A stretch of 32,461 nt of DNA from an uncultured Pelagibacteraceae bacterium (GTDB lineage: Bacteria; Pseudomonadota; Alphaproteobacteria; Pelagibacterales; Pelagibacteraceae): NCBI GenBank assembly GCA_902561465.1, contig CACEPH010000009.1, positions 1 to 32,461 of the forward strand. Direction: 5' to 3'. Positions 3,484-31,268 of the stretch are shown here, piece by piece. Position 1 is the first letter of the stretch. Each line of letters opens with the position of its first letter. Made by a program: the position numbers and the translations under genes. The notes below the pieces were generated by a model, which ran no database searches, was not told where the DNA came from, and saw nothing but the letters and a program-made list of their open reading frames with translations.

Positions 3484-4896
3484 TTATTTATTCAAAGTAG
3501 CTAAAACCTCTGCTTCACGCGTATTTGCATTAAATGACTGCGTAAATGGTATTGGAACAACAACTGCATCAACTGGTTTACTAGAGTATTTTTTTGGTAA
3601 GTGAACTTTATATTTTTTACCAAAATTTCCAACTGGAAACCCTTTAGGACTTAAATGTCCTTCATATGGGACATATCCCATTGCAATATTTTTTCCCTTT
3701 TCAGGATGATACCAAGGTGAAGTAATATAACCTATTGGTTTTCCGCCTTTTGAGTCAGAAATTAGCCAAAAATCTGGGGCATATTCTTCTATTGGTTTTC
3801 CGCCTAGTTCCATACCTACGAGTTGAAGTTTGTAAGGTTTTTTTCCTTCTTTAATTTCCTCTTTCATTTTTTCTAAAGCTTCTTTTCCCACATAGTCTGT
3901 TTTTTTATTCCACTCACCTTTGCCAGACAAAGAAACTTGATAACCCAAATTACATTGAAAAGGATTGTGTTCATTATCCATATCTTGACCCCAAGACAAA
4001 ATTCCTGCTTGGATTCTTCTATGGTGCGCAGGAGCAATAACCATTAGCTTATGTTTTTTTCCAGCTTTTAGAACAGCATTCCACATGTCCTCTGCGTATA
4101 AAGTGGCATCACGAAGATAAATTTCATATCCAGCTTCACCAGAAAATCCTGATTGAGAGATCACACAACTTCTACCTCCTACTTTAGCTTCCGCTAAACC
4201 ATAAAAAGGCATGTTATCTAGATCAACTTGATCTCCAATTAAATCATTCAGTAGTGCTTTTGATTTAGGACCTTGTATTTGTACTGGACATGCATCTATT
4301 TCGTCTATTTCTACATTGAATTTTTTATCAGCATTAACACCTTGTAAGTACATTCCAATATCAGAATCGGACAAACTAAACCAAAACTCATCGTCAGCTA
4401 CTCTTAATAAAACTGGATCGTTTAATACACCACCTTTATTATTACAAAGAATAACGTAACGTCCTCTCATCGTCGAAATTTTAGTTGCGTCACGTGTTAT
4501 CACATAATCTGTAAATTTTTCAGCATCTGGTCCTTTCACACGAATTTGTCTCTCCACGGCTACGTTCCACATAGTTACATGATTTTTAATTGCCGCATAT
4601 TCAACCATAGCTCCACCTTTTTCAGGTCTTACATAACCTCTTGGGTGATAAACACGATTATAAACTGTAGCTCGCCAGCATCCGGCTTTCATTGATAGAT
4701 GCCAGTAGGGTGATTTTCTTACTCTTGTTGAAATTAATAACTCCACTTTTGTTGGTCCGCTTTGTCTTAAATTGTAAGGTACATGTCTGTCTGATTGGTC
4801 TACTGATGTTTCGTGTCTAACTTTATCGTAATTAACCTTTTCAGGTTTAAATGAAACTGATTTTATTTTTTTAGTTTTTTTCTTTTTTTTAGGCAT
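3484..4896 (-). CDS. DmdA-like / GcvT-fold folate-dependent methyltransferase (putative demethylase)
   Basis: A 470-residue protein of the GcvT fold. After a lysine-rich leader (MPKKKKKTKKIKS) and a non-family N-terminal stretch of about 50 residues, the folate-binding domain begins near STRVRKSPYWHLSMKAG. Motifs include MWNVAVERQIRVKGPDAEKF, NDPVLLRVADDEFWFSLSDSD, PVQIQGPKSKALL and SGFSGEAGYEIYL. The order and wording resemble the DMSP demethylase DmdA (usually about 370 residues) more than the glycine-cleavage T protein, but it is about 100 residues longer and the mid-region (APAHHRRIQAGILSWGQDMD) differs from DmdA as I remember it. Expected chemistry is methyl transfer from an onium or O/N-methyl compound to THF. 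The start is set by GGAGAAC six bases upstream, inside the end of the MetF-like gene, with which it overlaps by 8 bases. Substrate unknown. Confidence 0.8.
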   Translation of the reverse strand: MPKKKKKTKKIKSVSFKPEKVNYDKVRHETSVDQSDRHVPYNLRQSGPTKVELLISTRVRKSPYWHLSMKAGCWRATVYNRVYHPRGYVRPEKGGAMVEYAAIKNHVTMWNVAVERQIRVKGPDAEKFTDYVITRDATKISTMRGRYVILCNNKGGVLNDPVLLRVADDEFWFSLSDSDIGMYLQGVNADKKFNVEIDEIDACPVQIQGPKSKALLNDLIGDQVDLDNMPFYGLAEAKVGGRSCVISQSGFSGEAGYEIYLRDATLYAEDMWNAVLKAGKKHKLMVIAPAHHRRIQAGILSWGQDMDNEHNPFQCNLGYQVSLSGKGEWNKKTDYVGKEALEKMKEEIKEGKKPYKLQLVGMELGGKPIEEYAPDFWLISDSKGGKPIGYITSPWYHPEKGKNIAMGYVPYEGHLSPKGFPVGNFGKKYKVHLPKKYSSKPVDAVVVPIPFTQSFNANTREAEVLATLNK

Positions 4897-5617
4897 AATT
4901 GTTCTCCATTAACCATTTGTTTGTTTCCTTAAGACCTCCAAAAGTATAAATATGAAAATTATCAGTTTTTCCTTCAAGCTTTTCAATTATATCATTTGGA
5001 TCTCTAGGTTTAAATAAATCTACAGCTTTAGTTACATTAGATTTAAGAAAATTAATTGAATTTTTTGCCCCAACAATATTTGCAAACTTTAATAGACTGC
5101 TTATTTTTAAAGGCCCAGTAATTCCTACATGAACTGGTAATGTTTGTTTAGAAATAAATTTAGCTATTGGATTAACATCTAGTAACCATTGTGTAACTAT
5201 ATAGTCTGCGTAAGGTTTCTTGTCGATCATAGCTTTTTCTAAATCTGAATCGGATATATCAGGGGACCCGTCAGGATGTCCAGCAATTCCTATCTTCCAA
5301 CCCTTGAATAATCCTGTCTCTAATAACTGCAATGAACAGTGAAAATCTCCAACGGGTTGTGCGCTACCCCCTATTACTAGAGCCTGTTTTACTCCCCCAT
5401 CCTTACATCTGGTTATGTAATCTTTTAGCTCGGCCTGATTTTTAATAGAACGAGCAGGAAAATGAGGAACTGGATTAAAACCAGATTTAACCAGTTCAGA
5501 AGCCTTGTTTGCCACTTCTCTATAATCATTACCAGGTAACATAGTAATATAAACATCCTTAACTTTAGGTAATTCTGAAAGATCAGTCTTCATGGTAATT
5601 TCTATAGAGAAATTCAT
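4889..5617 (-). CDS. MetF-like methylenetetrahydrofolate reductase family protein
   Basis: The product is 242 residues from the ATG at 5615-5617; a TTG at 5623 in frame is a poorer start. The protein opens with FSIEIT, the first strand of the MTHFR barrel, and carries VYITMLPG, GFNPVPHFPARSI, ALVIGGSAQPVGDF, IGIAGHPDGSPDI and ADYIVTQWLLD, the ordered strand motifs of a short MetF-like barrel that binds FAD and folate. It is slightly shorter than ordinary MetF (about 290 residues). It overlaps the start of the DmdA-like gene by 8 bases, so the two are co-translated. The natural reading is that the partner loads a methyl group on THF and this enzyme, running in the oxidative direction, turns methyl-THF into methylene-THF. 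The direction is inference from the pairing. Confidence 0.8.
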   Translation of the reverse strand: MNFSIEITMKTDLSELPKVKDVYITMLPGNDYREVANKASELVKSGFNPVPHFPARSIKNQAELKDYITRCKDGGVKQALVIGGSAQPVGDFHCSLQLLETGLFKGWKIGIAGHPDGSPDISDSDLEKAMIDKKPYADYIVTQWLLDVNPIAKFISKQTLPVHVGITGPLKISSLLKFANIVGAKNSINFLKSNVTKAVDLFKPRDPNDIIEKLEGKTDNFHIYTFGGLKETNKWLMENNYA

Positions 5618-5710
5618 AATCAACGGGATATACCAGCGGACCCCGGGGACTGTCCAGCAATTTCATTTGAAATCTATTGCCAATTTATATGGAAATGCTA
5701 GGATTTTTCT
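5618..5710. promoter_or_regulatory. Divergent intergenic region with GC-rich palindromes (candidate structured leader or operator)
   Basis: The gap between the MetF-like gene and the Rieske operon contains a block unlike the surrounding AT-rich DNA. At 5638-5655 the sequence GGACCCCGGGGACTGTCC has complementary ends (GGAC/GTCC) and a CCCCGGGG core; it is flanked by two copies of CCAGC (5633-5637 and 5654-5658). Directly after it, 5657-5680 can form a second hairpin (GCAA/TTGC outer, ATTTC/GAAAT inner, loop ATTT). Both could fold in the leader of the Rieske operon transcript, or the block could be a protein-binding site controlling both divergent units. I could not match it to a riboswitch consensus from memory. 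Confidence 0.45.
5700..5703 (+). promoter_or_regulatory. Ribosome binding site of the Rieske operon
   Basis: AGGA lies 7 bases before the ATG at 5711. It supports that start for the first gene of the operon, and it sits after the two potential hairpins of the intergenic region. Confidence 0.6.
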
Positions 5711-6907
5711 ATGAGTAATAAGCTCAATGGAAAAAGGAACATTTACGATATTATAAAAAAAGAAAAATTAGATATAGTTAATAAACCTATAGCCAAAGCT
5801 CATGGGCTGCCCAACGAGTGTTATAATAGTACTGAATATACTAAAATTGAAAGAAAAAAACTCTTTGAAGATAAGTGGGTCGTTATTGGTGTTGCTAGTT
5901 CAATACCCAAACCTGGAGATGCAAAACCTTTTGATTTATTAGGAATTCCCTTAATTTTATTAAGAAATAAAAAAAATCAAGTTAAAGTTTATCATAATGT
6001 TTGCAGCCATAGAGGATATAAAATTTTACAAAAAAAAAGTTCTATAAAAAATGTAATAAGATGTCCCTACCATTCTTGGTCTTATAACCTGGACGGTAAA
6101 CTTGTTGCTACTCCTCACCTAGGAGGAATGGATAAACACGAATCAAAGGATTTTGATAAATCATTAAGTGGTCTAAAAGAAGTTCGTTCATATGTTTGGC
6201 TAGACATGATTATTGTGAATATTTCTAACAATGAAGTATCGTTTGAAAAATATATTAAACCGTTAAAGGATCGATGGTCTAAGTTTTGGACAGAAAAAGA
6301 TCAAAAACTAATTAAACACTCAAATGACTTAGGCTATTTTAAATTAAAAGCAAAGTGCAATTGGAAGTTCGCGATTGAAAATTATTGTGAAAGTTATCAT
6401 TTGCCATGGGTTCATCCAAGTTTAAATAGTTATTCCAAAATTAGTGATCATTATCATATACAAGGCTTACCAAATAGATTTGCTGGTCAGGGAACTGTGG
6501 TTTACAATCCTAGATTAAAAGGGAAAAGTAAATTTCCTTGTTTTCCTAATTGGCCAAAAAATAAAATAAATATAGCCGAATACGTTGCTCTTTTTCCTAA
6601 TGTAATGATGGGTATTCATAAAGATCACTATTACGCATATTGGTTAGAACCAGTAAATCATGAACTTACTATAGAACATATGGAAATTTATTATGTGGGT
6701 AATGAAGCTGCAAATTCAAAAAAATTTAAAAACTTAAGAAAACAAAATTTAAAACTTTGGCATGATGTTCAATTAGAGGATGTTCATATTATAGAAGGCA
6801 TGCAGCAAGGAAGAAATTCACCATCTTATAATGGTGGAAACTTCTCGCCAGTTATGGATAATCCTACTCATCATTTCCATAAATGGGTAGCTACAAATTT
6901 AGTATAA
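5711..6907 (+). CDS. Rieske non-heme iron oxygenase, alpha subunit (GbcA/CntA-type)
   Basis: A 398-residue Rieske oxygenase large subunit. The [2Fe-2S] ligands are Cys98 and His100 (CSHRGYK) and Cys118 and His121 (CPYHSW). The mononuclear iron site is in NYCESYHLPWVH: His230 and His235, with a likely third ligand Asp in the C-terminal helix (LWHDVQLED). The residue three before the first His, which bridges the Rieske and iron centres, is Glu227 where aromatic-ring dioxygenases have Asp. Glu at this place is a mark of enzymes acting on quaternary amines, such as carnitine oxygenase CntA and glycine betaine monooxygenase GbcA. It should hydroxylate a carbon next to an onium centre, releasing an aldehyde or demethylating. 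No classical ferredoxin-reductase partner gene is nearby; the FrhB-like gene at 10681 may supply electrons. First gene of a seven-gene operon, one base from the next. Confidence 0.9.
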   Translation: MSNKLNGKRNIYDIIKKEKLDIVNKPIAKAHGLPNECYNSTEYTKIERKKLFEDKWVVIGVASSIPKPGDAKPFDLLGIPLILLRNKKNQVKVYHNVCSHRGYKILQKKSSIKNVIRCPYHSWSYNLDGKLVATPHLGGMDKHESKDFDKSLSGLKEVRSYVWLDMIIVNISNNEVSFEKYIKPLKDRWSKFWTEKDQKLIKHSNDLGYFKLKAKCNWKFAIENYCESYHLPWVHPSLNSYSKISDHYHIQGLPNRFAGQGTVVYNPRLKGKSKFPCFPNWPKNKINIAEYVALFPNVMMGIHKDHYYAYWLEPVNHELTIEHMEIYYVGNEAANSKKFKNLRKQNLKLWHDVQLEDVHIIEGMQQGRNSPSYNGGNFSPVMDNPTHHFHKWVATNLV

Positions 6908-6908
6908 A

Positions 6909-8144
6909 ATGAGATTTAGTAGAAAAATTTCTCCAGATACAAGACCAAAACAAAATTTTGTAACCAAAAAAAGATTAAGAGAAGATGAAATAAATTTTCA
7001 TAAACTTAGATCTTACAGGCTAGATAGAGTTAAAAAAGAATTAGAAAAAAATAATCTTGAAGCATGCTTATTATTTGATCCAGTAAACGTTAGGTACACT
7101 TTAGACACTACAAATATGAGCGTTTATCATATGCATAATCTCACTAGATATTGTTTTGTTCCAGTTAATGGACCTGTCATACTATATGAGTATTTTAATT
7201 GCGAAAATTTATCTAACCATTTGAATTTAATAGATGAAATAAGGCCAGCAATAACTTGGGATTATTTTAGCAATGGCGATCAAGCAAGTTCACAATTAAA
7301 GAAATGGATTAACGAAATTAAGGATTTATCAAATTCTTATTTTAAAAGTAAAAAAATTGCAATTGATGTTATTAATGGTCCAGCAGTAATAGCTTTAAAT
7401 AAAGAAAATATTCAAGTAGTAGATGCCAAATTAATTCTTGAACAAGCAAGAGTTATTAAATCTCCTGAAGAATTAAAATGTATGAGAGCGGCTATCGACG
7501 TTGCAGAAATTGGTGTAAATAAAATGAGAGAAGAATTAAAGGCAGGAATGACAGAAGATGAGCTTTGGTCAATCTTACATAAAACTAATATAGAGCATGG
7601 TGGTGAATGGATTGAATGTAGAATTTTATCTTCAGGCGAAAGAACAAATCCCTGGATGCAAGAAAGTAGTAATAAAGTCATTCAACATGGAGAGATAGTA
7701 TCTTTTGATACTGATATGGTTGGTCCTTACGGATATTGCGCAGATATATCCAGAGCTTTTGTTGTAGGCCATCAGTTTAATGATGAGCAAAAAAAAATAT
7801 ATTTAATGGGGGTCGAACATATAAATTATAATTCTAGATTAATTAAACCTGGAGTCTCATTTAAAGAATTCACTGAAAAATCATGGAAACTACCAGAGGA
7901 ATATTATAGCAATAGATATCCCTGTATGGTTCATGGAATAGGCCTTTGCGATGAGTGGCCGCTAATAAAATACCCAACGGATGGAGGTCAAAGAGAAGGT
8001 CGTTTTGAAAAAAATATGACTATTACAGTTGAATCTTATATTGGAAAAGTTGGAGGTAAAGAAGGAGTAAAATTAGAACAACAATATTTAGTTGGTGAAA
8101 ATGGACTTGAGTTAATGTCCCACCATCCTTTAGAAAATTTGTAG
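6909..8144 (+). CDS. M24-fold protein, DddP-like (DMSP lyase family or related onium lyase)
   Basis: A 411-residue protein of the M24 (creatinase/aminopeptidase P) fold with an N-terminal creatinase domain and C-terminal pita-bread domain. Metal-ligand candidates are Asp267, Asp269 (FDTDMVGPYGYCADIS), Asp279, His342 (VHGIGLCDEWP), Glu375 (TVESYIG) and Glu390 (KLEQQYLV). The extra Asp in FDTD and the spacings (D+2, D+12; H to D of 6; E to E of 15) equal those I recall for the DMSP lyase DddP (Asp295, 297, 307; His371 with catalytic base Asp377; Glu406, 421), so Asp348 would be the base. DddP splits DMSP into DMS and acrylate without peptidase activity. In this operon the true substrate may be another onium compound formed by its neighbours. 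It starts one base after the Rieske gene. Confidence 0.75.
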   Translation: MRFSRKISPDTRPKQNFVTKKRLREDEINFHKLRSYRLDRVKKELEKNNLEACLLFDPVNVRYTLDTTNMSVYHMHNLTRYCFVPVNGPVILYEYFNCENLSNHLNLIDEIRPAITWDYFSNGDQASSQLKKWINEIKDLSNSYFKSKKIAIDVINGPAVIALNKENIQVVDAKLILEQARVIKSPEELKCMRAAIDVAEIGVNKMREELKAGMTEDELWSILHKTNIEHGGEWIECRILSSGERTNPWMQESSNKVIQHGEIVSFDTDMVGPYGYCADISRAFVVGHQFNDEQKKIYLMGVEHINYNSRLIKPGVSFKEFTEKSWKLPEEYYSNRYPCMVHGIGLCDEWPLIKYPTDGGQREGRFEKNMTITVESYIGKVGGKEGVKLEQQYLVGENGLELMSHHPLENL

Positions 8145-8151
8145 TTTAAAA

Positions 8152-9003
8152 ATGAATAATAGATTAGAAAACATAATCAATCTTAAAAAATATCCAATCC
8201 AGGATTTAGATTCTCCATTAATAAAAGAATTAATAAAAAAATGTAAAAGTGATTTAGACAAATTTAGTTGTGCTACTGTTCCTAATTTTATTTTACCCAA
8301 ATCTTTAAAAATAATGAATGCAGAGTTAGAAAAACAACTTGATGAAGTTTATATGTCAAAGCAAAGTATAAACGCATATTTATATTCAAAAGACGATCCT
8401 TCATTACCTAAAGACCATCCAAAAAGAATATTTATGGATCGTTACAATGGATATTTAAACTCTGATGTTTTTCCAAAAGATTCTGAGATGAAATTCCTTT
8501 ATGAACAAGATGAACTTTTAAATTTTGTGTCAGCTTGTCTTGGAATATCACCAATTTATCGATGGGCCGACCCTTTAGCTTGTCATGCTTATAATGTTAT
8601 GAAACCAGACGGTATTCTTCCTTGGCATTTTGATAGCTGCGAATTTACTTTAAGTTTCATGATACAAAAACCTGAGAAAGGTGGAATATTTGAGTATTGC
8701 CCCAACATACGTGAACCTGGAAATGAAAAATTAGAAGAAGTTAAAAAAGTGCTTGATGGAGATCGTAAAAGAGTTCGTCAATTAAAATTAGAACCAGGTG
8801 ATCTTCAAATATTTAAAGGACGTTTTACTCTTCACCGTGTAACAAAAATAGAAGGAAATCGTTCTAGATATCTTTGTATACCAGCTTATGTTCTTGATCC
8901 TTGGAGAGTAAACACTCCTGAACATTCAAAAGCTATATATGGAAAAGTATTGCCAATTCATATTGAAAGAAATAAACCTAGATCGGATGGTTTAGCAGAC
9001 TGA
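8152..9003 (+). CDS. Fe(II)/2-oxoglutarate-dependent oxygenase (PhyH/ArpA-like)
   Basis: A 283-residue protein with the facial triad of the Fe(II)/2-oxoglutarate oxygenases: His159 and Asp161 in LPWHFDSCEF, and His228 in FKGRFTLHRV, with Arg238 (GNRSRY) ten residues later as the likely 2-oxoglutarate carboxylate anchor. The segment KLEPGDLQIFKGRFTLHRVT resembles the loosely defined PhyH/ArpA-like group seen in marine alphaproteobacteria. It should hydroxylate an unactivated carbon, releasing CO2 and succinate. In context it could install the hydroxyl that the carnitine-dehydrogenase-like enzyme two genes downstream then oxidises, by analogy with gamma-butyrobetaine hydroxylase followed by carnitine dehydrogenase. 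That order is inference. Its TGA shares one base with the next ATG (TGATG). Confidence 0.82.
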   Translation: MNNRLENIINLKKYPIQDLDSPLIKELIKKCKSDLDKFSCATVPNFILPKSLKIMNAELEKQLDEVYMSKQSINAYLYSKDDPSLPKDHPKRIFMDRYNGYLNSDVFPKDSEMKFLYEQDELLNFVSACLGISPIYRWADPLACHAYNVMKPDGILPWHFDSCEFTLSFMIQKPEKGGIFEYCPNIREPGNEKLEEVKKVLDGDRKRVRQLKLEPGDLQIFKGRFTLHRVTKIEGNRSRYLCIPAYVLDPWRVNTPEHSKAIYGKVLPIHIERNKPRSDGLAD

Positions 9004-9734
9004 TGAAAAAAAATATTAATGAAGCTGAATGGAAAGTCAGAGTCGATCTTGCGGCTATGTTTAGACTAACTCACATGATGGGTTGGGATGATACTGTTTG
9101 GAATCATATAACTGCAAGAACACCTGGAACAGATCATACTTTTTTTATGCATCAATTTGGACTTGTTTACGAAGAAGTAAAAGCCTCCAACTTAATTAAA
9201 GTAGATGAAAATGGTAAAATTCTTGAAGGACCTTCTGATGTTAATACAGCAGGATTTATAATTCATAGCGCTGTACATTTAAATCATCCAAAAAATAAAT
9301 TTGTTTTTCATGCTCATCCTCCAAAAGCTATAGCAGCTACAGCATTAAAAGATGGAATTCCATATTTAGTTCAGGACTCAGCAATGCTCTATGGAAAAGT
9401 TGGTTATCATGATTGGGAAGGTTTATCGATTGATAAAGATGAAAGATTCAGAATTGCTGAAAATCTTGGAGAAAATAAAGTCTTAATTATGAAAAATCAT
9501 GGTTTGCTAACTGTCGGCGAAACTGCAGGTGAATCTTTTATGAATATGTATTATGCGGTAAGAATGTGCGAAGTCGCTACACAAGCTCAAGGCTCTGGTC
9601 TAAAATTAGAAATTTCAACTAAAGAATTATGGAAAAAATCACAAAAGCAATATGATGCTTTTTCACCAGGACCAAATGAATGGCCAGCTTTACTTAGAAG
9701 ATGTGACGCTGTCGATCCTTCTTACAAAGAATAA
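9003..9734 (+). CDS. Class II aldolase/adducin family protein
   Basis: A 243-residue protein of the class II (zinc) aldolase/adducin fold. The metal-binding histidines are visible as His103 and His105 (FHAHPPKAIA) and His166 (KNHGLLTVGET). Other family segments are WNHITARTPG near the N-terminus and the C-terminal helix SFMNMYYAVRMCEVATQAQ. The length is typical. Members cleave or decarboxylate beta-hydroxy or keto compounds or act as epimerases, and substrates cannot be inferred from the motif alone. Here it is coupled to the upstream 2-oxoglutarate oxygenase (1-base overlap) and lies 2 bases before the carnitine-dehydrogenase-like gene, so a retro-aldol C-C cleavage of a hydroxylated intermediate is a reasonable but unproven role. 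Confidence 0.85.
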   Translation: MKKNINEAEWKVRVDLAAMFRLTHMMGWDDTVWNHITARTPGTDHTFFMHQFGLVYEEVKASNLIKVDENGKILEGPSDVNTAGFIIHSAVHLNHPKNKFVFHAHPPKAIAATALKDGIPYLVQDSAMLYGKVGYHDWEGLSIDKDERFRIAENLGENKVLIMKNHGLLTVGETAGESFMNMYYAVRMCEVATQAQGSGLKLEISTKELWKKSQKQYDAFSPGPNEWPALLRRCDAVDPSYKE

Positions 9735-9736
9735 TT

Positions 9737-10684
9737 ATGTCAAATATTATAAATAAAGTTGCCATCATAGGCACTGGAGTTATTGGAGCTGGTTGGATTA
9801 TTAGATGTTTAGCTCACAATAAAAAAGTTGTTGCGTTTGACAAAGACCTAAAATTAAAAAAAAAATTAGTTTCTGAGATAAAACGTACTTGGCCTTATGT
9901 AAAAAAATTATTTAATAAAAAGAAACTTAATTTGAAAAATTTTAAATATGTTACTTCAATAGAAAATGCTCTTGAAGAATCTGACTTTATTCAGGAATGT
10001 GCAACAGAAAATTATAGAATAAAAACAAAGTTAATGAGTATTATTAGTAAATATGCAAAGCCTAATGCTATTATTTCATCTAGCTCGTCTGGTCTACTTC
10101 CAACAAGAATATATTCCAAATGTAAAAATCCAGCGCGAACAATGATTGGGCATCCTTTTAATCCTGTTTATATGTGCCCTGGAGTTGAGATCGTCCCTGG
10201 AAAAAAAACGAAAAAGAAATTTTTAAATAAAGCTAATAAATTTTACAAATCAATATCAATGAATCCAATCATGGTAAAAAAAGAATTGCCTGGTTATTTA
10301 GCGGACAGACTTCAAGAAGCTTTGTGGAGAGAAGCTTTGCATATAGTCAATGAAGGTTATGCATCAACTAAAGATTTGGATAGATCAATTGAAGATGGTC
10401 CAGGTTTAAGGTGGTCATTAATGGGAATATTTTTAACTTATCATTTAGCTGGTGGCAAAGCAGGGATGAAACATATGCTAGAACAATTTGGTCCTGCATT
10501 AAAATTACCTTGGACTAAATTGAAAGCTCCAAAACTTTCTAAAAAATTATCATCAAGAGTTATCACAGGTACTAGACAACAGGCGAAGGGAAAGTCTGTT
10601 GCTATGATTTCTAATATAAGAGATGAATATTTGGTTAATCTTCAAAAACTTAGAAAAAAATACGAAAATAAAATTAGAAAATGA
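9737..10684 (+). CDS. L-carnitine dehydrogenase-like 3-hydroxyacyl-CoA dehydrogenase family protein
   Basis: A 315-residue NAD-dependent dehydrogenase. The Rossmann motif is IGTGVIGAG (Gly12, Gly14, Gly17), with Asp34 (AFD) closing strand 2, which indicates NAD rather than NADP. The catalytic dyad is probably His138 (GHPFNP) with Glu150. Unlike fatty-acid enzymes it continues into LADRLQEALWREALHIVNEG and GLRWSLMGIFLTYHLAGG, both highly characteristic of L-carnitine 3-dehydrogenase as I remember it, and the length agrees. Expected reaction is oxidation of a free 3-hydroxy acid carrying a cationic tail to a 3-oxo acid. The usual carnitine partners (beta-keto acid cleavage enzyme of the DUF849 type, betainyl-CoA thioesterase) are missing here, so the substrate may be a carnitine analogue. 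It overlaps the next gene by 4 bases (ATGA). Confidence 0.82.
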   Translation: MSNIINKVAIIGTGVIGAGWIIRCLAHNKKVVAFDKDLKLKKKLVSEIKRTWPYVKKLFNKKKLNLKNFKYVTSIENALEESDFIQECATENYRIKTKLMSIISKYAKPNAIISSSSSGLLPTRIYSKCKNPARTMIGHPFNPVYMCPGVEIVPGKKTKKKFLNKANKFYKSISMNPIMVKKELPGYLADRLQEALWREALHIVNEGYASTKDLDRSIEDGPGLRWSLMGIFLTYHLAGGKAGMKHMLEQFGPALKLPWTKLKAPKLSKKLSSRVITGTRQQAKGKSVAMISNIRDEYLVNLQKLRKKYENKIRK

Positions 10685-11901
10685 TCTCCATAAATAAATT
10701 AAACGATATTGTAGATAATGGACTTTGTATTGGCTGCGGGCTTTGTCAAAGTATTGCTGGTAAAGAAAATATAGAAGTATCAATGACTGCTAAGGGCAGA
10801 CTTGAGCCAAAAGAAATAGGTAAAATTAGTCCAGAAGTTTTTAATAAAATATTAAATGTTTGTCCTGGAACAATAGTTGAGGGACTCCCTAAAGAAGAGG
10901 TAGCTTCTAATTCTGAAAATAATCTTGTTTGGGGGTATTATTTATCTCTTTTCTATTCATGGTCTACCGATAAAAAAATAAGATTTGAAAGCTCGACAGG
11001 CGGTTTGCTAAATGGATTATCTCTTTATTTGCTAGAATCAAAAAAAGTAAAATTCATTATGCATACGGATGCTAATCCAAAAAAACCAATGCGTAGTGTT
11101 TCTAAATTTAGTTATAATAAGGAAGAGCTTTTAGGAAATGAAAGTCGCTCAAGATATGGCCCCGCCTCACCCTTGGACAGATTTCATGAAGCTCTTGATT
11201 TAAAACAACCTTTTGCTTTTGTTGGCAAACCTTGTGATATCAGTGCAGTTAGACAACTTGCTAAAATAGATTCTAGAGTAAATAAATTTTGTAAATATTT
11301 ATTAACTTTAGTATGCGGAGGCTTTGCAGAATTTACCAAATCACAAGATTTTATTGAAAGTTTTAAAGTGAAAGAAGATGAATTATCTATTTTTAGATAT
11401 AGAGGTTATGGAAATCCTGGAAGGATGTATATTAAAACAAAAGATGGTCGTGAACATGATAGAGAATATAATTCTTTTTGGGGTGAAGAATCCACATGGA
11501 GAGTTCCTTTCAGATGTAAAATATGTCCGGACGCAATCGGTGAAAGTGCAGATGTAGCAGCTCTAGATACATGGAGAGGCGGTTCTCCTAAAAGTGAAGA
11601 TGAAGGTTTTAATGCAGCTATTGTCAGAACTAAAAAAGGACTAGATTTGATAAATAGTGCAGCTAAAGCTGGATTTATTCACATTGGAGACAAATTAAAA
11701 ATAGAAGATATTGATGACTTCCAACCTCATCAGGTTAATAAAAAAAAAGCGGTTTATGCCAGACATCTTGGGATGACAAAAAATGATGTGCCTGCTATCA
11801 ATACAAAAGGATTAAGAATTAAAGAATTATATAAATTAAATAGTGATGATTTTAATAAAAAAGAAGAATTGGGTGTGAGCAAAAGATTAAAAAAAATTTA
11901 A
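10681..11901 (+). CDS. Coenzyme F420 hydrogenase/dehydrogenase beta-subunit (FrhB) family flavin/Fe-S protein
   Basis: A 406-residue protein with a [4Fe-4S] cluster motif at the N-terminus, Cys16-Ile-Gly-Cys19-Gly-Leu-Cys22, completed by Cys61-Pro. Family segments follow: ESSTGGLLNGL, FVGKPCDISAVRQL (Cys184), VCGGF (Cys211), and FRCKICPDAIGESADVA (Cys278, Cys281), which suggests a second cluster next to a flavin site. These are hallmarks of the FrhB superfamily, which also contains ferredoxin-dependent reductases that use FAD and not F420, such as plant 7-hydroxymethyl-chlorophyll a reductase. No F420 biosynthesis gene is seen in this window, so FAD is the likely cofactor. In this operon it might be the electron donor for the Rieske oxygenase or a reductase of a pathway intermediate; both are inference. 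Confidence 0.85.
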   Translation: MISINKLNDIVDNGLCIGCGLCQSIAGKENIEVSMTAKGRLEPKEIGKISPEVFNKILNVCPGTIVEGLPKEEVASNSENNLVWGYYLSLFYSWSTDKKIRFESSTGGLLNGLSLYLLESKKVKFIMHTDANPKKPMRSVSKFSYNKEELLGNESRSRYGPASPLDRFHEALDLKQPFAFVGKPCDISAVRQLAKIDSRVNKFCKYLLTLVCGGFAEFTKSQDFIESFKVKEDELSIFRYRGYGNPGRMYIKTKDGREHDREYNSFWGEESTWRVPFRCKICPDAIGESADVAALDTWRGGSPKSEDEGFNAAIVRTKKGLDLINSAAKAGFIHIGDKLKIEDIDDFQPHQVNKKKAVYARHLGMTKNDVPAINTKGLRIKELYKLNSDDFNKKEELGVSKRLKKI

Positions 11902-11906
11902 TTAAT

Positions 11907-12545
11907 ATGAAAAAAGAAAACTTGCCAAATAAAATTCCTGTTTTTCCTTTATCCAACGCAATATTTTTTCCAAGAACAGTATTGCCACTGAATATTTTTG
12001 AAGATCGTTACTTACAACTTGTTAACGATTGTATGAAAGGAAAAAGAATGTTTGGTATGGTACAACCAAGAAATAGTAAGGGAATGTCACCAGAAGTTTA
12101 TAGTATAGGTTGCCTAGGAAAAATAATAAGCTTTAACGAAACAACAGATAAAAGATTTATAATTACACTCTTAGGATTAACACGATTTAAAATAAAAAAA
12201 GAGCTCGAGGAAAAAAAATTATATAGAAGTTTTGAAGTTGATTATTCTGAGTTTTTAACTGACTTAGAAACAAAAAAAGATGAATCTTTTATTGGTGAAA
12301 AAAAAGACTTATTGAATAAAATACAAATCTTTTTTGAAAAAATTAATTATCCAGTAAACTATAATGAATTATCTAAGCTTGATCTGGATGAATTGATTAA
12401 TAATGTGAGTATGATCTCTCCTTTCTCCATTGAAGAAAAACAAAAATTAATAGAAACAAAAAAAATAGATAATAAAATTAAGATATTTAACGAAATAATT
12501 AATTTTAATCTTTTAGATTATGAAGAAAACAAAACAGTTCAATAA
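11907..12545 (+). CDS. LON peptidase N-terminal (substrate-binding) domain protein
   Basis: A 212-residue protein containing only the Lon N-terminal domain: it starts with IPVFPLSNAIFFPRTVLPLNIFEDRYLQLV, shown here by its PLS-x6-P-x4-PL-x-IFE core (residues about 11-33), and lacks the AAA and protease domains of Lon. Free-standing Lon N-domain proteins are common in alphaproteobacteria, usually as housekeeping genes of unknown role; some relatives bind substrates as ubiquitin-ligase adaptors (cereblon) in eukaryotes. It starts 5 bases after the FrhB-like gene and is the last gene of the + strand operon, so it is probably a passenger in transcription and not a pathway enzyme. Its stop is 9 bases from that of the convergent aldehyde dehydrogenase. 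Confidence 0.85.
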   Translation: MKKENLPNKIPVFPLSNAIFFPRTVLPLNIFEDRYLQLVNDCMKGKRMFGMVQPRNSKGMSPEVYSIGCLGKIISFNETTDKRFIITLLGLTRFKIKKELEEKKLYRSFEVDYSEFLTDLETKKDESFIGEKKDLLNKIQIFFEKINYPVNYNELSKLDLDELINNVSMISPFSIEEKQKLIETKKIDNKIKIFNEIINFNLLDYEENKTVQ

Positions 12546-12554
12546 TAAATTTGA

Positions 12555-13988
12555 TTAGTTCCAACCGCCAACTGTTTTGACTTCTAAAAATTCTATTAAA
12601 CCTTCCGTTCCAGCTTCTCGTCCAATGCCAGAATGCTTGTATCCGCCGAAGGGAGAAGCGACAGCTATACCAACTCCATTAACATCTACCATTCCAGATC
12701 TAAGTTTTCTTGCAACTCTTTTAACTTTTTCTTTATCTTGGGTTTGAATATAATTTGTCAAACCATATGGAGTGTCATTTGCTATTGTGACAGCTTCTTC
12801 TTCATTTTCAAAAGGAATTATAGATAACACTGGGCCAAAGATTTCAGTTCTTGCTATCTCCATTTGATTATTAACATCAGCAAAAACAGTTGGTTTTACA
12901 TAATAACCTTTTTCTAAACCTTTAGGTTTACCAGTTCCCCCGGCAACTAATTTTGCTCCTTCATCTATTCCTTTTTGAATTAGAGTTTGAATTTTTTTAA
13001 ATTGCACTTCAGAAACTACTGGTCCAATATGATCACCGTCCTTTTGTGGAGAATCTACCTTAGTATTATTTGCTAAATCTTTAACTTTTTCTACAGTTTC
13101 GTTGTAAATTGACTTTTCAACAAGCATTCTTGTGGGAGCATTACAAGATTGTCCTGAATTTCTAAAACATCTTAGAACACCTCTCGCTATCGCATCGGAA
13201 TCTGCGTCTTTAAAAATTATATTTGCACCTTTTCCACCTAATTCTAAACTTATTCTTTTAAAATCTTTTGCAGCATTTTGAGAAATTAATGCACCAGCTC
13301 TTGTTGATCCAGTAAAAGAAATCATATCAATATCAGGATGGCTGGTTAAAGCATCTCCAGTAATAGCTCCATCTCCATTTACTAAATTAAAAACTCCTGA
13401 AGGAAACTTAGCCTCATCAATCATTTCTGCAAGCAACATTGATGACAAAGGTGCTATCTCGGATGGTTTTAAAACTACTGTGCATGCTGATGCTAGTGCA
13501 GGAATTACTTTTAGATTAACTTGATTTATTGGCCAATTCCAAGGTGTAATTAAAGCACAGACACCCTTTGGTTCATACAATAATTTTTGATTATTTTTTT
13601 CTTCTCCTAGATCTTTTTCAAATTTAAAATTTTTTAATATATTTTTAAAAGATTTAATGTGGCTAGCTCCTGTTGCAGCCTGCATTTCCGTCGAAAATTT
13701 CATGGGAGCTCCCATCTCAAGGGTAATGAGTTTTGCCATTTCTGCCCATCGTTTTTTATAAATAACATATAATTTTTCTAATAATTCTAATCTTTCTTCT
13801 TTTTTTGAAAAAGCCCAAGTTTCAAAAGCTTTTTTAGCAGCACTAACCGCTTTATCTATATCCTTTTTTCCACCAAGTGATATTTCTGCACACGGCTCTT
13901 CATTTGAAGGATCAATTACTCTGTAATTTCTTGGCTCTACTGGAGAAACCCATTTTCCATTAATGTAAAAATTTTTTTTATCTAGCAT
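12555..13988 (-). CDS. NAD(P)-dependent aldehyde dehydrogenase
   Basis: A 477-residue member of the aldehyde dehydrogenase superfamily with all main catalytic features: Asn151 in ITPWNWP, Glu249 in LELGGKGANI, and the nucleophile Cys282 in RNSGQSCNAPTRM. FTGSTRAG marks the NAD-binding loop and PFGGYKHSGIGREAG the C-terminal oligomerisation strand. It follows the betaine-type permease gene by only 5 bases on the minus strand, after the binding-protein gene, so it is probably co-transcribed with uptake. An aldehyde from an imported methylated amine or alcohol is a sensible substrate, for example betaine aldehyde or a product of the nearby Rieske pathway, but residues that would set specificity cannot be judged from memory. 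Confidence 0.92.
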   Translation of the reverse strand: MLDKKNFYINGKWVSPVEPRNYRVIDPSNEEPCAEISLGGKKDIDKAVSAAKKAFETWAFSKKEERLELLEKLYVIYKKRWAEMAKLITLEMGAPMKFSTEMQAATGASHIKSFKNILKNFKFEKDLGEEKNNQKLLYEPKGVCALITPWNWPINQVNLKVIPALASACTVVLKPSEIAPLSSMLLAEMIDEAKFPSGVFNLVNGDGAITGDALTSHPDIDMISFTGSTRAGALISQNAAKDFKRISLELGGKGANIIFKDADSDAIARGVLRCFRNSGQSCNAPTRMLVEKSIYNETVEKVKDLANNTKVDSPQKDGDHIGPVVSEVQFKKIQTLIQKGIDEGAKLVAGGTGKPKGLEKGYYVKPTVFADVNNQMEIARTEIFGPVLSIIPFENEEEAVTIANDTPYGLTNYIQTQDKEKVKRVARKLRSGMVDVNGVGIAVASPFGGYKHSGIGREAGTEGLIEFLEVKTVGGWN

Positions 13989-13993
13989 TTTTC

Positions 13994-14878
13994 TTACTTT
14001 TTATATCCCCTATGTTTTTGTATTCTACGACCGTACTCTTGTGCAATTCTATCAAAAATAATTGCTAAAGCTACTATTGCTAAGCCGTTTAAAAGCCCTA
14101 AAGCAAGATATTGATTTAAAACGGCTCGCAAAATTGGCACACCTAAGCCTTTTACACCGATCATTGAAGCTATTACAACCATTGCTAAAGCCATCATAAT
14201 TGTTTGGTTTACTCCGGCAAAAACGGTTGGAAGCGCTAGTGGAATTTGTACTGTTTTTAATTTTTGAAATGTTGTAGCTCCATAAGCTGTGCTAGCTTCT
14301 AAAGTTTCCTTATCAACCTCTCGAATTCCAAGATTTGTTAATCTTATTATTGGTGGAACTGCATATATACAAATAGCTATCAATCCAGGAACTTTTCCAA
14401 TGCCAAGTAGCATAAGTATTGGAATTAAATATACGAAACTTGGAATTGTTTGCATCATATCTAGAACAGGTAGTATTGTTCTTTCTACTCTATCTGAGCG
14501 AGACATCCATACTCCTACAGGTATTCCTGCAGTCATACATATAATTACACATACAGTTATAATTGCTACCGTAGCCATGGTATCTATCCACATGCCAAAA
14601 TAACCAATAAAGAAGAAAGCTAGTGCAGCTCCAAGTACAAGCTTCCAATTTTTTGAACCTAACCAAGCTAACCCACAAATAACTGCTATTACTATTGGCC
14701 AAGGAGAATTAATTAATAGTTTTTCTAACCAAACCAAAAAATATAATAATGGATCAAAAAATGCTTCTATAGCATCACCGTATGTTCTAGAAAAATCTCT
14801 AAAAGCAAAATCAATTCCCTTTCTCATTTCCATGAGAGCTGTACGATCCATTACGGGAAATTTTGTTAAAAATTCCAT
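13994..14878 (-). CDS. proW: ABC transporter permease, glycine betaine/proline (ProW) type
   Basis: A 294-residue inner-membrane permease. The N-terminal part is amphipathic, followed by about six to seven transmembrane helices from residue 55. The EAA-type coupling loop that contacts the ATPase is visible as EASTAYGATTFQKLKTVQIPLALP (core EAS...G...L), preceded by MQTIPSFVYLIPILMLLGIG, a hallmark of the OpuA/ProW group. It lies downstream of the binding protein gene, separated by a strong terminator hairpin, and 5 bases before the aldehyde dehydrogenase. No ATPase gene is adjacent. A GAGG stands 4 bases before the ATG, directly after the terminator T-run. It is paralogous to the permease at 31432-32454. 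Confidence 0.9.
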   Translation of the reverse strand: MEFLTKFPVMDRTALMEMRKGIDFAFRDFSRTYGDAIEAFFDPLLYFLVWLEKLLINSPWPIVIAVICGLAWLGSKNWKLVLGAALAFFFIGYFGMWIDTMATVAIITVCVIICMTAGIPVGVWMSRSDRVERTILPVLDMMQTIPSFVYLIPILMLLGIGKVPGLIAICIYAVPPIIRLTNLGIREVDKETLEASTAYGATTFQKLKTVQIPLALPTVFAGVNQTIMMALAMVVIASMIGVKGLGVPILRAVLNQYLALGLLNGLAIVALAIIFDRIAQEYGRRIQKHRGYKK

Positions 14879-14936: not shown

Positions 14937-15959
14937 TTAAAGACCAGCTTTTATTTTTTTCTTAGCACTACCTGATACCCATTTACCCCATATCTTTTCA
15001 TGCTTTTTCAAAAACTCAATTGCTGCATCTGAACCTTTTGCTTGGTTATCAGCCATGTACACAAGCATTCCATTCATTACTTCACCTGGGAAAGTACGTT
15101 TCTCAACATATTTCAAAGCGTCTTTTCCTCCAGTTTTAGCAAAATTAGCTGTAACGATAGAATTAACTTCTGATTTTGTCCATGCAGTAGGTTTAGGATC
15201 TGCACAATCTTGTTCAGCAAGAGTTATACAGTTATCCCAATTATCTCTACCTGCAAAAGGTACTCCGAAATCAACTGGTATCAGACTATATTTTCCAACT
15301 ATAGAAGTTGGGTTCCAATAGTATCCAAGCCAAGGATTTCCTGAATCGGCTGCTTTAGCAATTGAACCGTCTAAGCCAGCAGCAGAACCTGGGTCAACTA
15401 ATACCCAACCTTTTTTTTCCATTTCAAAAGCTCTGAAAAGGTTTGCGTTAGCTAACTGACATCCCCAACCAGCTGGACAACCAACAAAAGCTCCTTTTGA
15501 AGGATCTTCTTTGTATGGAAACCACTCTGGGTGTTCTAGAATTTCCATTGCTGTCATACCTTTTATTTTTGGATGTTTTTTAACAGTTCCTGGAGTAATC
15601 CACCAACCTTCACCGAGACCAGTGATAGGTGCTTTGTTAGCTATAATCAATCTTTTTTCTGAAACAGCTTTTTTCAAAGGTGTGTAAACAGCATTAGCCC
15701 ATTGTTCTGGATTCATATCTGGTGAACCTTTGTCATTCATAGATGTAAAAGTTGGCATTGTAGCGCCAGGCACTAATTCAACTTCACAACCGTAGCCTTT
15801 TTCTAAAATGATCTTATCAACATTGGCCATCAATTCAGCTGATGCCCAGTTTTGTTCAGCAATAACAAGTTTCCCACAAGCTGCATTTGCATTAACGTTA
15901 AATGCAAAAAAACCTAAAGCAACTAATGAAGAAATTATTAGCTTTTTAAAAGTTTTCAT
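14937..15959 (-). CDS. Periplasmic substrate-binding protein, glycine betaine/choline/TMAO (OpuAC) type
   Basis: A 340-residue exported protein with a classical signal peptide: MKTFKK, a hydrophobic core, and a cleavage site after NANA at about residue 26. The mature part is a type-F binding protein of the OpuAC family, rich in tryptophans that form the cation-pi box for quaternary amines: Trp38 (EQNWASAEL), Trp119/120 (GEGWWITPG), Trp165 (CPAGWGC) and Trp210/215 (WLGYYWNP). Cys28/Cys58 and Cys161/Cys167 could form disulfides. Ligand choice (glycine betaine, TMAO, proline betaine, DMSP) cannot be decided by eye. The gene is first in its unit, has a strong AGGGAG site 5 bases before the ATG, and is followed by a terminator hairpin, all consistent with the very high expression typical of SAR11 binding proteins. 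Confidence 0.92.
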   Translation of the reverse strand: MKTFKKLIISSLVALGFFAFNVNANAACGKLVIAEQNWASAELMANVDKIILEKGYGCEVELVPGATMPTFTSMNDKGSPDMNPEQWANAVYTPLKKAVSEKRLIIANKAPITGLGEGWWITPGTVKKHPKIKGMTAMEILEHPEWFPYKEDPSKGAFVGCPAGWGCQLANANLFRAFEMEKKGWVLVDPGSAAGLDGSIAKAADSGNPWLGYYWNPTSIVGKYSLIPVDFGVPFAGRDNWDNCITLAEQDCADPKPTAWTKSEVNSIVTANFAKTGGKDALKYVEKRTFPGEVMNGMLVYMADNQAKGSDAAIEFLKKHEKIWGKWVSGSAKKKIKAGL

Positions 15960-29927: not shown

Positions 29928-31268
29928 ATGACAAAAGTAGCAATTATTGGAACGGGTCCTTGTGGTCTTTCGATGTTAAGATCTTTTGAGCAAGCTGAAA
30001 AAAAAGGAGAAAAAATACCTCAAATAGTTTGTTTTGAAAAACAAGAAGATTGGGGAGGATTATGGAACTACAATTGGAGAACTGGATCTGATCAATATGG
30101 AGACCCTGTTCCTAACAGCATGTATAGATATCTTTGGTCAAATGGTCCCAAAGAATGTTTAGAATTTGCTGATTATTCTTTTGATGAGCATTTCGGACAT
30201 CCAATTCCATCATTTCCACCGAGAGAAGTTTTATATGATTATATAATCGGTAGAGTAAAAAAAGGAAATCTCAAAAAAAAAGTAAGATTTAACACAACTG
30301 TTATGACTGTAACTCATAATGGAAAAAATTTTGAAGTAACTTCACATGATAAAAAAAATGATAAATTTTCAAAAGATATATTTGATTATTTAGTTGTATC
30401 TACAGGACATTTCTCTGTTCCATTTATCCCAGAATATCCGGGAATGAAATCTTTTCCAGGAAGAATATTGCATTCACATGATTTTAGAGACGCAGAAGAA
30501 TTCAGAGGTAAAAATGTTATTGTTTTAGGAAGTAGTTATTCAGCTGAAGACGTTGCTCTTCAATGTCATAAATATGGAGCAAAAAGTGTGACTATAGGTT
30601 ATAGAAATAACCCAATGGGTTTTAAATGGCCGAATGGAGTAAAAGAAGTCCATTATTTAGACAGACTAGAAGGAAATAAAGCAATCTTTAAAGATGGTCA
30701 CAAACAAGAAGCTGATGCAATAATTTTATGTTCAGGTTATCTTCATCATTTCCCTTTTTTAACTGAAGACCTTAAACTAAAAACTAGAAACAGATTATAT
30801 CCACCAAAATTATATAAAGGTGTAGTTTGGGAAAATAATCATAAATTGTTGTACTTAGGTATGCAGGATCAATTTCATACCTTTAACATGTTTGATTGCC
30901 AAGCTTGGTATGCAAGAGATGTGATAATGGGTAAAATTAAAATTCCAAGTAATTCAGAAATAGAAAAAGATATAAATAAATGGGTTGCTATGGAAGAAAA
31001 ATTAGAAAATCCAGATCAAATGATAGACTTTCAAACTGAATATACTAAAGAACTTCATGAATTGTCTGATTATCCAAAAATTGATTTTGAATTAATTAGA
31101 AAACATTTTAAAGAATGGGAACATCATAAAGTAGAAGATATTATGACTTATAGGAACAAATCTTTTTCATCACCAGTGACTGGATCTGTTGCACCAATTC
31201 ATCATACGCCATGGGCCTCTGCAATGGATGATTCTTCAAAAGCTTTTTTAAATCAATCAAAAAAATAA
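29928..31268 (+). CDS. tmm: Trimethylamine monooxygenase (bacterial FMO)
   Basis: A 446-residue flavin-containing monooxygenase. The FAD motif is IGTGPCGLS (Gly8, Gly10, Gly13), the FMO identifying motif is FPGRILHSHDF (residues 176-186), and the NADPH motif is GSSYSAED (from 201). MYRYLWSNGPKECLEFADYS and GMQDQFHTFNMFDCQAWYAR are very close to the trimethylamine monooxygenases of methylotrophs and marine bacteria as I remember them, including the Asn of SNG near the active site. It oxidises trimethylamine to its N-oxide with NADPH and O2; family members also turn dimethyl sulfide into DMSO. It is convergent with a 52-residue membrane protein and a betaine/TMAO-type permease. The TMAO demethylase gene tdm is not in the window. 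Confidence 0.94.
   Translation: MTKVAIIGTGPCGLSMLRSFEQAEKKGEKIPQIVCFEKQEDWGGLWNYNWRTGSDQYGDPVPNSMYRYLWSNGPKECLEFADYSFDEHFGHPIPSFPPREVLYDYIIGRVKKGNLKKKVRFNTTVMTVTHNGKNFEVTSHDKKNDKFSKDIFDYLVVSTGHFSVPFIPEYPGMKSFPGRILHSHDFRDAEEFRGKNVIVLGSSYSAEDVALQCHKYGAKSVTIGYRNNPMGFKWPNGVKEVHYLDRLEGNKAIFKDGHKQEADAIILCSGYLHHFPFLTEDLKLKTRNRLYPPKLYKGVVWENNHKLLYLGMQDQFHTFNMFDCQAWYARDVIMGKIKIPSNSEIEKDINKWVAMEEKLENPDQMIDFQTEYTKELHELSDYPKIDFELIRKHFKEWEHHKVEDIMTYRNKSFSSPVTGSVAPIHHTPWASAMDDSSKAFLNQSKK

Follow-up and report, generated by a model that had tools for sequence, protein, structure and literature searches.

The stretch of DNA analyzed here, referred to as the window, spans 32,461 nucleotides of contig CACEPH010000009.1 (C9 in our numbering; C20 is a further contig of the same genome) from an uncultured Pelagibacteraceae bacterium of the SAR11 group (assembly GCA_902561465.1), the genome of which is 63% complete; its nearest named relatives likewise indicate Pelagibacteraceae. 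Six open reading frames (ORFs), A to F (Table 1), are packed at positions 5711-11901, all on the plus strand and with gaps of 1, 7, -1, 2, and -4 bp. An earlier note on this DNA had assigned these genes to six enzyme families read in one direction with tight spacing, and we confirm both the arrangement and the families, with active-site motifs intact. The same note had proposed that the six enzymes form a single linear pathway for an onium compound. This proposal is not supported, as the members separate by presence and absence into B+C, D+F, E with BKACE, and A. The six genes thus probably represent three or four enzyme sets for the breakdown of betaine-type salts, each with its own inheritance.

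Table 1. Genes of the A-F operon and flanking features of the window
Feature	Product	Position	Strand	Length (aa)	Details
A	Group V-type Rieske oxygenase alpha subunit	5711-6907	+	398	Rieske and Ring_hydroxyl_A
B	DddP-like M24 metalloenzyme	6909-8144	+	411	Peptidase_M24; DddP is best NCBIfam model
C	HalD/BesD-family Fe(II)/2-oxoglutarate oxygenase	8152-9003	+	283	HxD...H; HalD Pfam 47 bits, cut-off 26
D	Class II aldolase/adducin-type enzyme	9003-9734	+	243	PRK07044 266.6 bits, cut-off 207
E	L-carnitine 3-dehydrogenase-like 3HCDH	9737-10684	+	315	L-carnitine dehydrogenase is best model
F	FrhB-like (FrhB_FdhB) flavin/Fe-S oxidoreductase	10681-11901	+	406	CxxCxxC and CxxC intact
LON-N-like ORF		11907-12545	+
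BADH-like	Aldehyde dehydrogenase	12555-13988	-		Convergent with operon; position kept in most near relatives
ProW-type	Permease, betaine importer	13994-14878	-		Candidate uptake system
ProX-type	Betaine-binding protein	14937-15959	-		Candidate uptake system
MTHFR-like		4889-5623	-		Divergent from A
DmdA-like	Aminomethyltransferase	3484-4896	-		Divergent; 239.6 bits, cut-off 410

Tight packing alone is weak evidence for an operon at this locus, since 13 of the 15 same-strand gaps across the window measure 9 bp or less. A seventh same-strand ORF (LON-N-like) starts 5 bp past F and was not seen at that place in the relatives. No plus-strand terminator-like sites were found inside A-F, and promoter-like sites within it were not more frequent than in shuffled sequence. 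Conservation of the gene order was assessed in the 13 named loci closest to the window (L075-L087; L-numbers denote loci and G-numbers genomes), of which L075-L086 are from single-cell genomes, including SCGC AAA288-G21, which we take to belong to subclade Ic. All 13 loci have A and C, 12 have B, and 8 have E; D and F occur in 9, which are the same loci for both genes. The full order A-B-C-(C')-D-E-F was found in L075, L081, L084, and L085, where L081 and L085 have a single small gene in addition, and in L076 as far as F, which is truncated because the contig ends there. In G028 and L087 the set is kept, but kinase, nucleotidyltransferase, and beta-propeller genes separate B from C. The recurrence of the set in close relatives shows that the synteny is real. 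In addition, reduced forms occur, comprising A-B-C only (L079), A-B-C-E (L077), A-B-C-D-F (L082), and A-C-D-E-F without B (L086). Given the forms in L079, L077, and L082, the operon is nested, with a core of A-B-C and optional D/F and E.

B and C regularly occur together. In order-wide searches of 247 SAR11 genomes, in which strong copies of C were counted and the counts were not corrected for phylogeny, B was found in 53 genomes, C in 56, and both in 52, leaving one genome with B only and four with C only. This association does not depend on adjacency, as in about 11 of the 52 genomes the two genes lie on different contigs or some 100 kb or more apart (e.g., G015, G074, and G144). Loci without B and C (L158-L160) read Rieske, kinase (136 amino acids [aa]), nucleotidyltransferase (124 aa), and enoyl-CoA hydratase; compared with L035-L043, the insertion point of B follows the Rieske gene and that of C follows the nucleotidyltransferase gene, so the two genes have separate entry points into the betaine locus. 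The APS-kinase-like and NMNAT-like genes of this pair (L036, 8678-9459; also L035-L043 and L158-L162) are conserved between the Rieske/M24 genes and the enoyl-CoA hydratase gene of the Pelagibacter betaine locus and are absent from the window operon. Large ORFs (707 to 773 aa) resembling secreted autotransporter/beta-propeller proteins are inserted between them in L042 (4223-8624), L053, L057-L059, and L087.

Outside SAR11, a 2-oxoglutarate (2OG) oxygenase gene and an M24 gene form an operon with the same order in four other lineages, namely, Pseudomonas sp. MPC6, Caballeronia sp. SBC2, G605, and G274. The order is 2OG-M24-FrhB on plasmid pMPC6-328K of the Antarctic Pseudomonas sp. MPC6 (54, 48, and 47% identity, respectively) and 2OG-M24-ProX-ProW-ProV in Caballeronia sp. 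SBC2. Plasmid pMPC6-328K further holds a relative of A (46.6%), a second M24 gene, a second 2OG oxygenase gene, the closest plasmid relative of D (61%), HIBDH, and ProXWV, so that relatives of A, B, C, D, and F occur together on it at 47 to 61% identity. No relative of E was seen there, the whole plasmid not having been searched for E, which is in keeping with a separate role of E. This content supports the existence of a shared onium-catabolic guild. The plasmid also carries a cluster with a dddD-dddT-dddB-dddC make-up, a reading that is based on gene order and product names. The region from 165 to 250 kb (L174, L179, L189, and L190) forms a large onium-osmolyte island with dddD-BCCT-dddB-dddC-like genes, choX, several importers of the BCCT and ProXWV types, three MR/MLE enzymes, AcnX/DUF126, and the relatives of five of the six window genes. 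Weak HalD-type matches in other genomes (31% or less) have no adjoining M24 gene, and relatives of C in phage records or of its MPC6 counterpart in viral contigs were not found.

The residues of B are consistent with a DddP-like enzyme that acts on another substrate. B scores 358.5 bits against the DddP model NF043017, under its cut-off of 600, while SAR11 family f2 DddP (786.7 bits) and Oceanisphaera DddP (626.5 bits) exceed it, and B falls in a clade separate from DddP. It retains all six DddP metal ligands (D295, D297, D307, H371, E406, and E421) as well as Y366 and D377. In DddP, two M24 histidines are exchanged for Asp and Phe, and the sulfur of dimethylsulfoniopropionate (DMSP) is bound through a Trp and a Tyr (review, PMC5395565). 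W95 may be the onium-binding Trp. In the window copy of B it is replaced by Tyr, and F278 by Met (DddP numbering); none of 79 SAR11 copies has Trp at position 95, where Tyr, Phe, or His occurs, and all of them have Met at position 278. Every aligned non-SAR11 M24 protein of the DddP group without a 2OG pairing has Trp at position 95, whereas Tyr, Phe, Met, or His is found there in the 2OG-paired M24 proteins and in all 79 SAR11 copies. Hence, B probably works like DddP, as a lyase for another onium acid. The f2 DddP gene, which scores above the cut-off, lies within the order BKACE-LcdH-BBOX-DddP-BHMT-DMGDH beside ProXWV (L055, 9801-11171; L056), so in that family genes of carnitine and betaine metabolism stand in one operon with a DMSP lyase gene.

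C appears to be of the hydroxylase type rather than a halogenase, as judged from its HxD motif, despite the Pfam name "Halogenase D." The metal-binding carboxylate is kept throughout the SAR11 copies (WHFD). The adjacency of C and E might suggest a second gamma-butyrobetaine hydroxylase, but this is not needed, as most genomes with C already have BBOX.

A carries an intact Rieske motif (CxH/CxxH at 98-121), the NYCESYHLPWVH motif with the Glu bridge, LEDV, and the 2-His-Asp site. Its closest relatives are betaine/carnitine oxygenases, in keeping with a Group V quaternary-amine Rieske oxygenase, yet its score against the GbcA model NF058607 (125.4 bits) lies under the cut-off of 670. A Cys-X-X-Cys pair by the iron is a feature of some Group V members (PMC10952381); at the positions of Cys206 and Cys209 of CntA, A has Ser and Leu. 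A was found in 61 of 80 genomes, in several of them without B and C, and no reductase gene lies beside it. A is a member of the betaine locus also in genomes that lack B and C. A 47% relative of A in Acinetobacter baumannii (L194, 7977-13317), which differs from CntA, is accompanied by genes for an aldehyde dehydrogenase (ALDH), a rubredoxin-NorW-type fusion reductase, and a second flavoenzyme, with a 556-aa membrane protein, read as a BCCT transporter, encoded opposite.

D occurs only alongside F, and the two usually accompany a second 2OG paralogue (2OG'). A free-standing 2OG'-HIBDH-D-F operon is found in unrelated neighborhoods in G020, G116, G184, and G190 (L044-L046 and L074). D has the HxH and H zinc-type ligands, an SSE-type catalytic Glu was not seen in it, and it could be a retro-aldolase or a decarboxylase. 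We considered F as an F420-dependent enzyme and rejected this, as cofD, for F420 biosynthesis, is absent from all 8 FrhB-positive SAR11 genomes; F is probably not F420-linked here and would instead use ferredoxin or NAD(P)H via its Fe-S clusters. Relatives of FrhB elsewhere in Alphaproteobacteria (36 to 44%) have no B, C, or D in their short flanks.

E follows yet another distribution. It is the only carnitine dehydrogenase-like gene found in the window genome, and NF005471 is its top-scoring model, even though the score of 349.7 bits is below the cut-off of 414. Among 80 genomes, 49 have both E and BKACE, one has E only, and none has BKACE only. Contig C20 encodes BKACE, BBOX, a thioesterase, ProXWV-type proteins, GDPD, SDR, and a GMC dehydrogenase, but no carnitine dehydrogenase. 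Since E tracks BKACE, and C20 has BKACE and BBOX without LcdH, E is probably the L-carnitine dehydrogenase of the C20-encoded pathway. An island of Arctic SAR11 has already been annotated with this carnitine pathway (PMC12421898). The suggestion of gonyol as the substrate, which the earlier note had derived from the presence of both E and B, thereby loses its main support; for B and C, the substrate may be gonyol, DMSP, or some other onium acid. Contexts in MPC6, G026, and R. leguminosarum (MR/MLE, AcnX, and hydroxyproline epimerase) hint at proline betaine and hydroxyproline betaine without deciding the matter; homarine was considered as well.

Taken together, we consider it reasonably probable that A-F arose as a mosaic within the glycine-betaine locus of SAR11, with C and B as its distinctive core, and not as a six-step pathway. 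From gene content, conservation, co-occurrence, and residues, we infer the following reactions, their order, and the importer. A ProXWV-type importer would take up a betaine-type carboxylate (with a quaternary nitrogen or a sulfonium), which C would hydroxylate, and the dimetal DddP-like M24 enzyme B would then act on the hydroxylated onium acid, splitting it either by hydrolysis or by an elimination assisted by Asp. A, encoded at this locus too, would oxidize a quaternary amine, while E would serve as the L-carnitine 3-dehydrogenase of the genome and feed the BKACE encoded elsewhere. D and F would constitute a separate cassette (an aldolase or decarboxylase and a ferredoxin- or NAD-type flavo-Fe/S reductase), normally working after a beta-hydroxyacid dehydrogenase and a 2OG hydroxylase other than C. 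The oxidized products would exit via ALDH and dehydrogenases. More tentatively, and with somewhat less than even confidence, we suggest that C and B, with F where present, form an undescribed, horizontally spread module for an abundant marine onium osmolyte, in which B has been retuned away from DMSP and hydroxylation by C prepares cleavage.

Several observations argue against a mosaic with a C+B core. Shared ancestry inflates the co-occurrence counts, and the genomes in which B and C lie apart mostly seem to represent one or two clades. D and E also adjoin C in several genomes and could act on its product, and in most Pelagibacter loci the unexplained kinase and nucleotidyltransferase genes separate B from C. 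The position of D377 is occupied by Gly in the partner M24 proteins of Caballeronia sp. SBC2, G605, and G274, so a single elimination mechanism cannot hold for all pairs, and the cousins of B may use different chemistry. Finally, the AlphaFold model of C, built from 21 sequences, is poor (predicted local distance difference test score [pLDDT], 45).

Other explanations of the locus have to be set beside the mosaic. B might simply be a lyase for DMSP (or DMSOP) in a local DMSP/betaine region, with C, D, E, and F unrelated to it. The intact metal ligands, Y366, and D377 would fit, as would the f2 DddP within a carnitine/betaine operon and the DmdA-like gene near B, but the low model score, the separate clade, and the residues at positions 95 and 278 in the 79 SAR11 copies do not, and DddP needs no 2OG partner, whereas B and C co-occur; we regard this as unlikely. 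Alternatively, B could be the partner of the Rieske oxygenase A, with C as a bystander. M24 relatives do follow GbcA-like Rieske and GbcB-like reductase genes in rhizobia and Burkholderiales (e.g., Rhizobium and Paraburkholderia), one plasmid locus of MPC6 has both Rieske and M24 genes, and A and B adjoin in the window. Yet A is widespread without B (G003, G011, and G024) and lacks an adjoining reductase gene, the rhizobial Rieske proteins are only about 32% like A, and M24 proteins partnered with Rieske oxygenases keep Trp95, which SAR11 B and the 2OG-partnered M24 proteins do not, making such a partnership rather improbable.

A dedicated six-enzyme pathway that hydroxylates, oxidizes, and splits one beta-hydroxy onium acid, for example, gonyol or carnitine, would account for the contiguity of A-F in the window and several relatives, for the retention of the set in G028 and L087, and for the fact that C adjoins D, E, or F in different genomes. 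It is difficult to reconcile with the reduced sets in the near relatives L079, L077, L082, and L086, with E tracking BKACE rather than B or C, and with the occurrence of A without B and C, and we consider it quite doubtful. Least probable in our view is the absence of any joint function, in which compact SAR11 genomes would bring variable betaine-island genes together by chance. The short gaps throughout the window and the widely varying neighbors at the same locus would be expected in that case, but B+C, D+F, and E with BKACE recur beyond adjacency, and B+C also beyond SAR11.

The surroundings of the operon bear out the onium/betaine theme that the earlier note had proposed, as do E-like genes elsewhere, which lie in carnitine clusters. 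The window holds genes for BHMT, DMGDH, ProX/ProW, sarcosine oxidase, and BADH-like ALDH, together with a methyltransferase, FTHFS, Fe-ADH, and MTHFR-like and DmdA-like proteins. This one-carbon and glycine-betaine region is the one known from HTCC1062 (PMC3160333). The DmdA-like and MTHFR-like genes are conserved across many SAR11 genomes as divergent neighbors of Rieske A and are possibly a demethylation pair of their own. Near the right edge of the window, an FMO-like flavin monooxygenase gene (29928-31268) possibly encodes the SAR11 trimethylamine monooxygenase.

SAR11 is the dominant group of the ocean bacterioplankton, and the betaines and sulfonium salts that it consumes link it to the marine cycles of nitrogen, sulfur, and trace gases, which this consumption affects. 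The oxygenase and DddP-like pair, present in about a fifth of the sampled SAR11 genomes (52/247) and in soil and Antarctic bacteria, would, if our reading is correct, represent a new onium-cleaving route and give SAR11 a further way of releasing an amine or a sulfide. Likewise, similarity alone is no ground for counting DddP-like matches in SAR11 as DMSP lyases. The carnitine part illustrates that SAR11 relocates single pathway enzymes into other operons. As to the novelty asserted in the earlier note, the carnitine and betaine demethylation genes are known, whereas the 2OG and DddP-like pair appears to be undescribed; no publication on it was found in the literature searched, which excludes most subscription journals and preprints.

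In comparison with known systems, E matches the LcdH (CdhA-type) member of the pathway from carnitine/gamma-butyrobetaine to glycine betaine (PMC12421898), with BBOX, BKACE, thioesterase, and ProXWV on C20, but in this genome LcdH has been relocated to a different contig, where it is part of the A-B-C operon, and the remaining operon genes fall outside that pathway. A shares with the Group V enzymes CntA, GbcA, and Stc2 the Rieske and mononuclear iron motifs and the Glu bridge, CntA being its best PDB match, and departs from them in its sub-cut-off GbcA score, the lost Cys pair, and the missing adjoining reductase gene. The closest relatives of D, about 59% identical, are in plasmid operons of Mesorhizobium and Sulfitobacter that have the HIBDH-aldolase order of the SAR11 cassette, but GhrA and a mandelate-racemase-family enzyme replace 2OG' and FrhB; these HIBDH-aldolase-GhrA operons face a betaine-type importer and an MR/MLE enzyme. 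C belongs with the HalD/BesD lysine halogenases by Pfam (HalD), BesD being its only solved relative by sequence (E value, 6e-4), but has an HxD triad in place of HxG/A. B resembles DddP (NF043017; PDB 4B28 and 4RZY) in fold family, metal ligands, Tyr366/Asp377, some 37% identity, and its link to onium catabolism, and differs in its sub-cut-off score, the changes of Trp95 to Tyr/Phe and Phe278 to Met, its own clade, and the conserved 2OG oxygenase partner. In the phosphonate routes TmpA/TmpB and PhnY/PhnZ, hydroxylation by an Fe/2OG enzyme is followed by cleavage of the product by a dimetal enzyme. The hydroxylation and dimetal cleavage proposed for C and B would work in a similar way, but B has an M24 fold where those routes use an HD-domain oxygenase, and the context here is not one of phosphonates.

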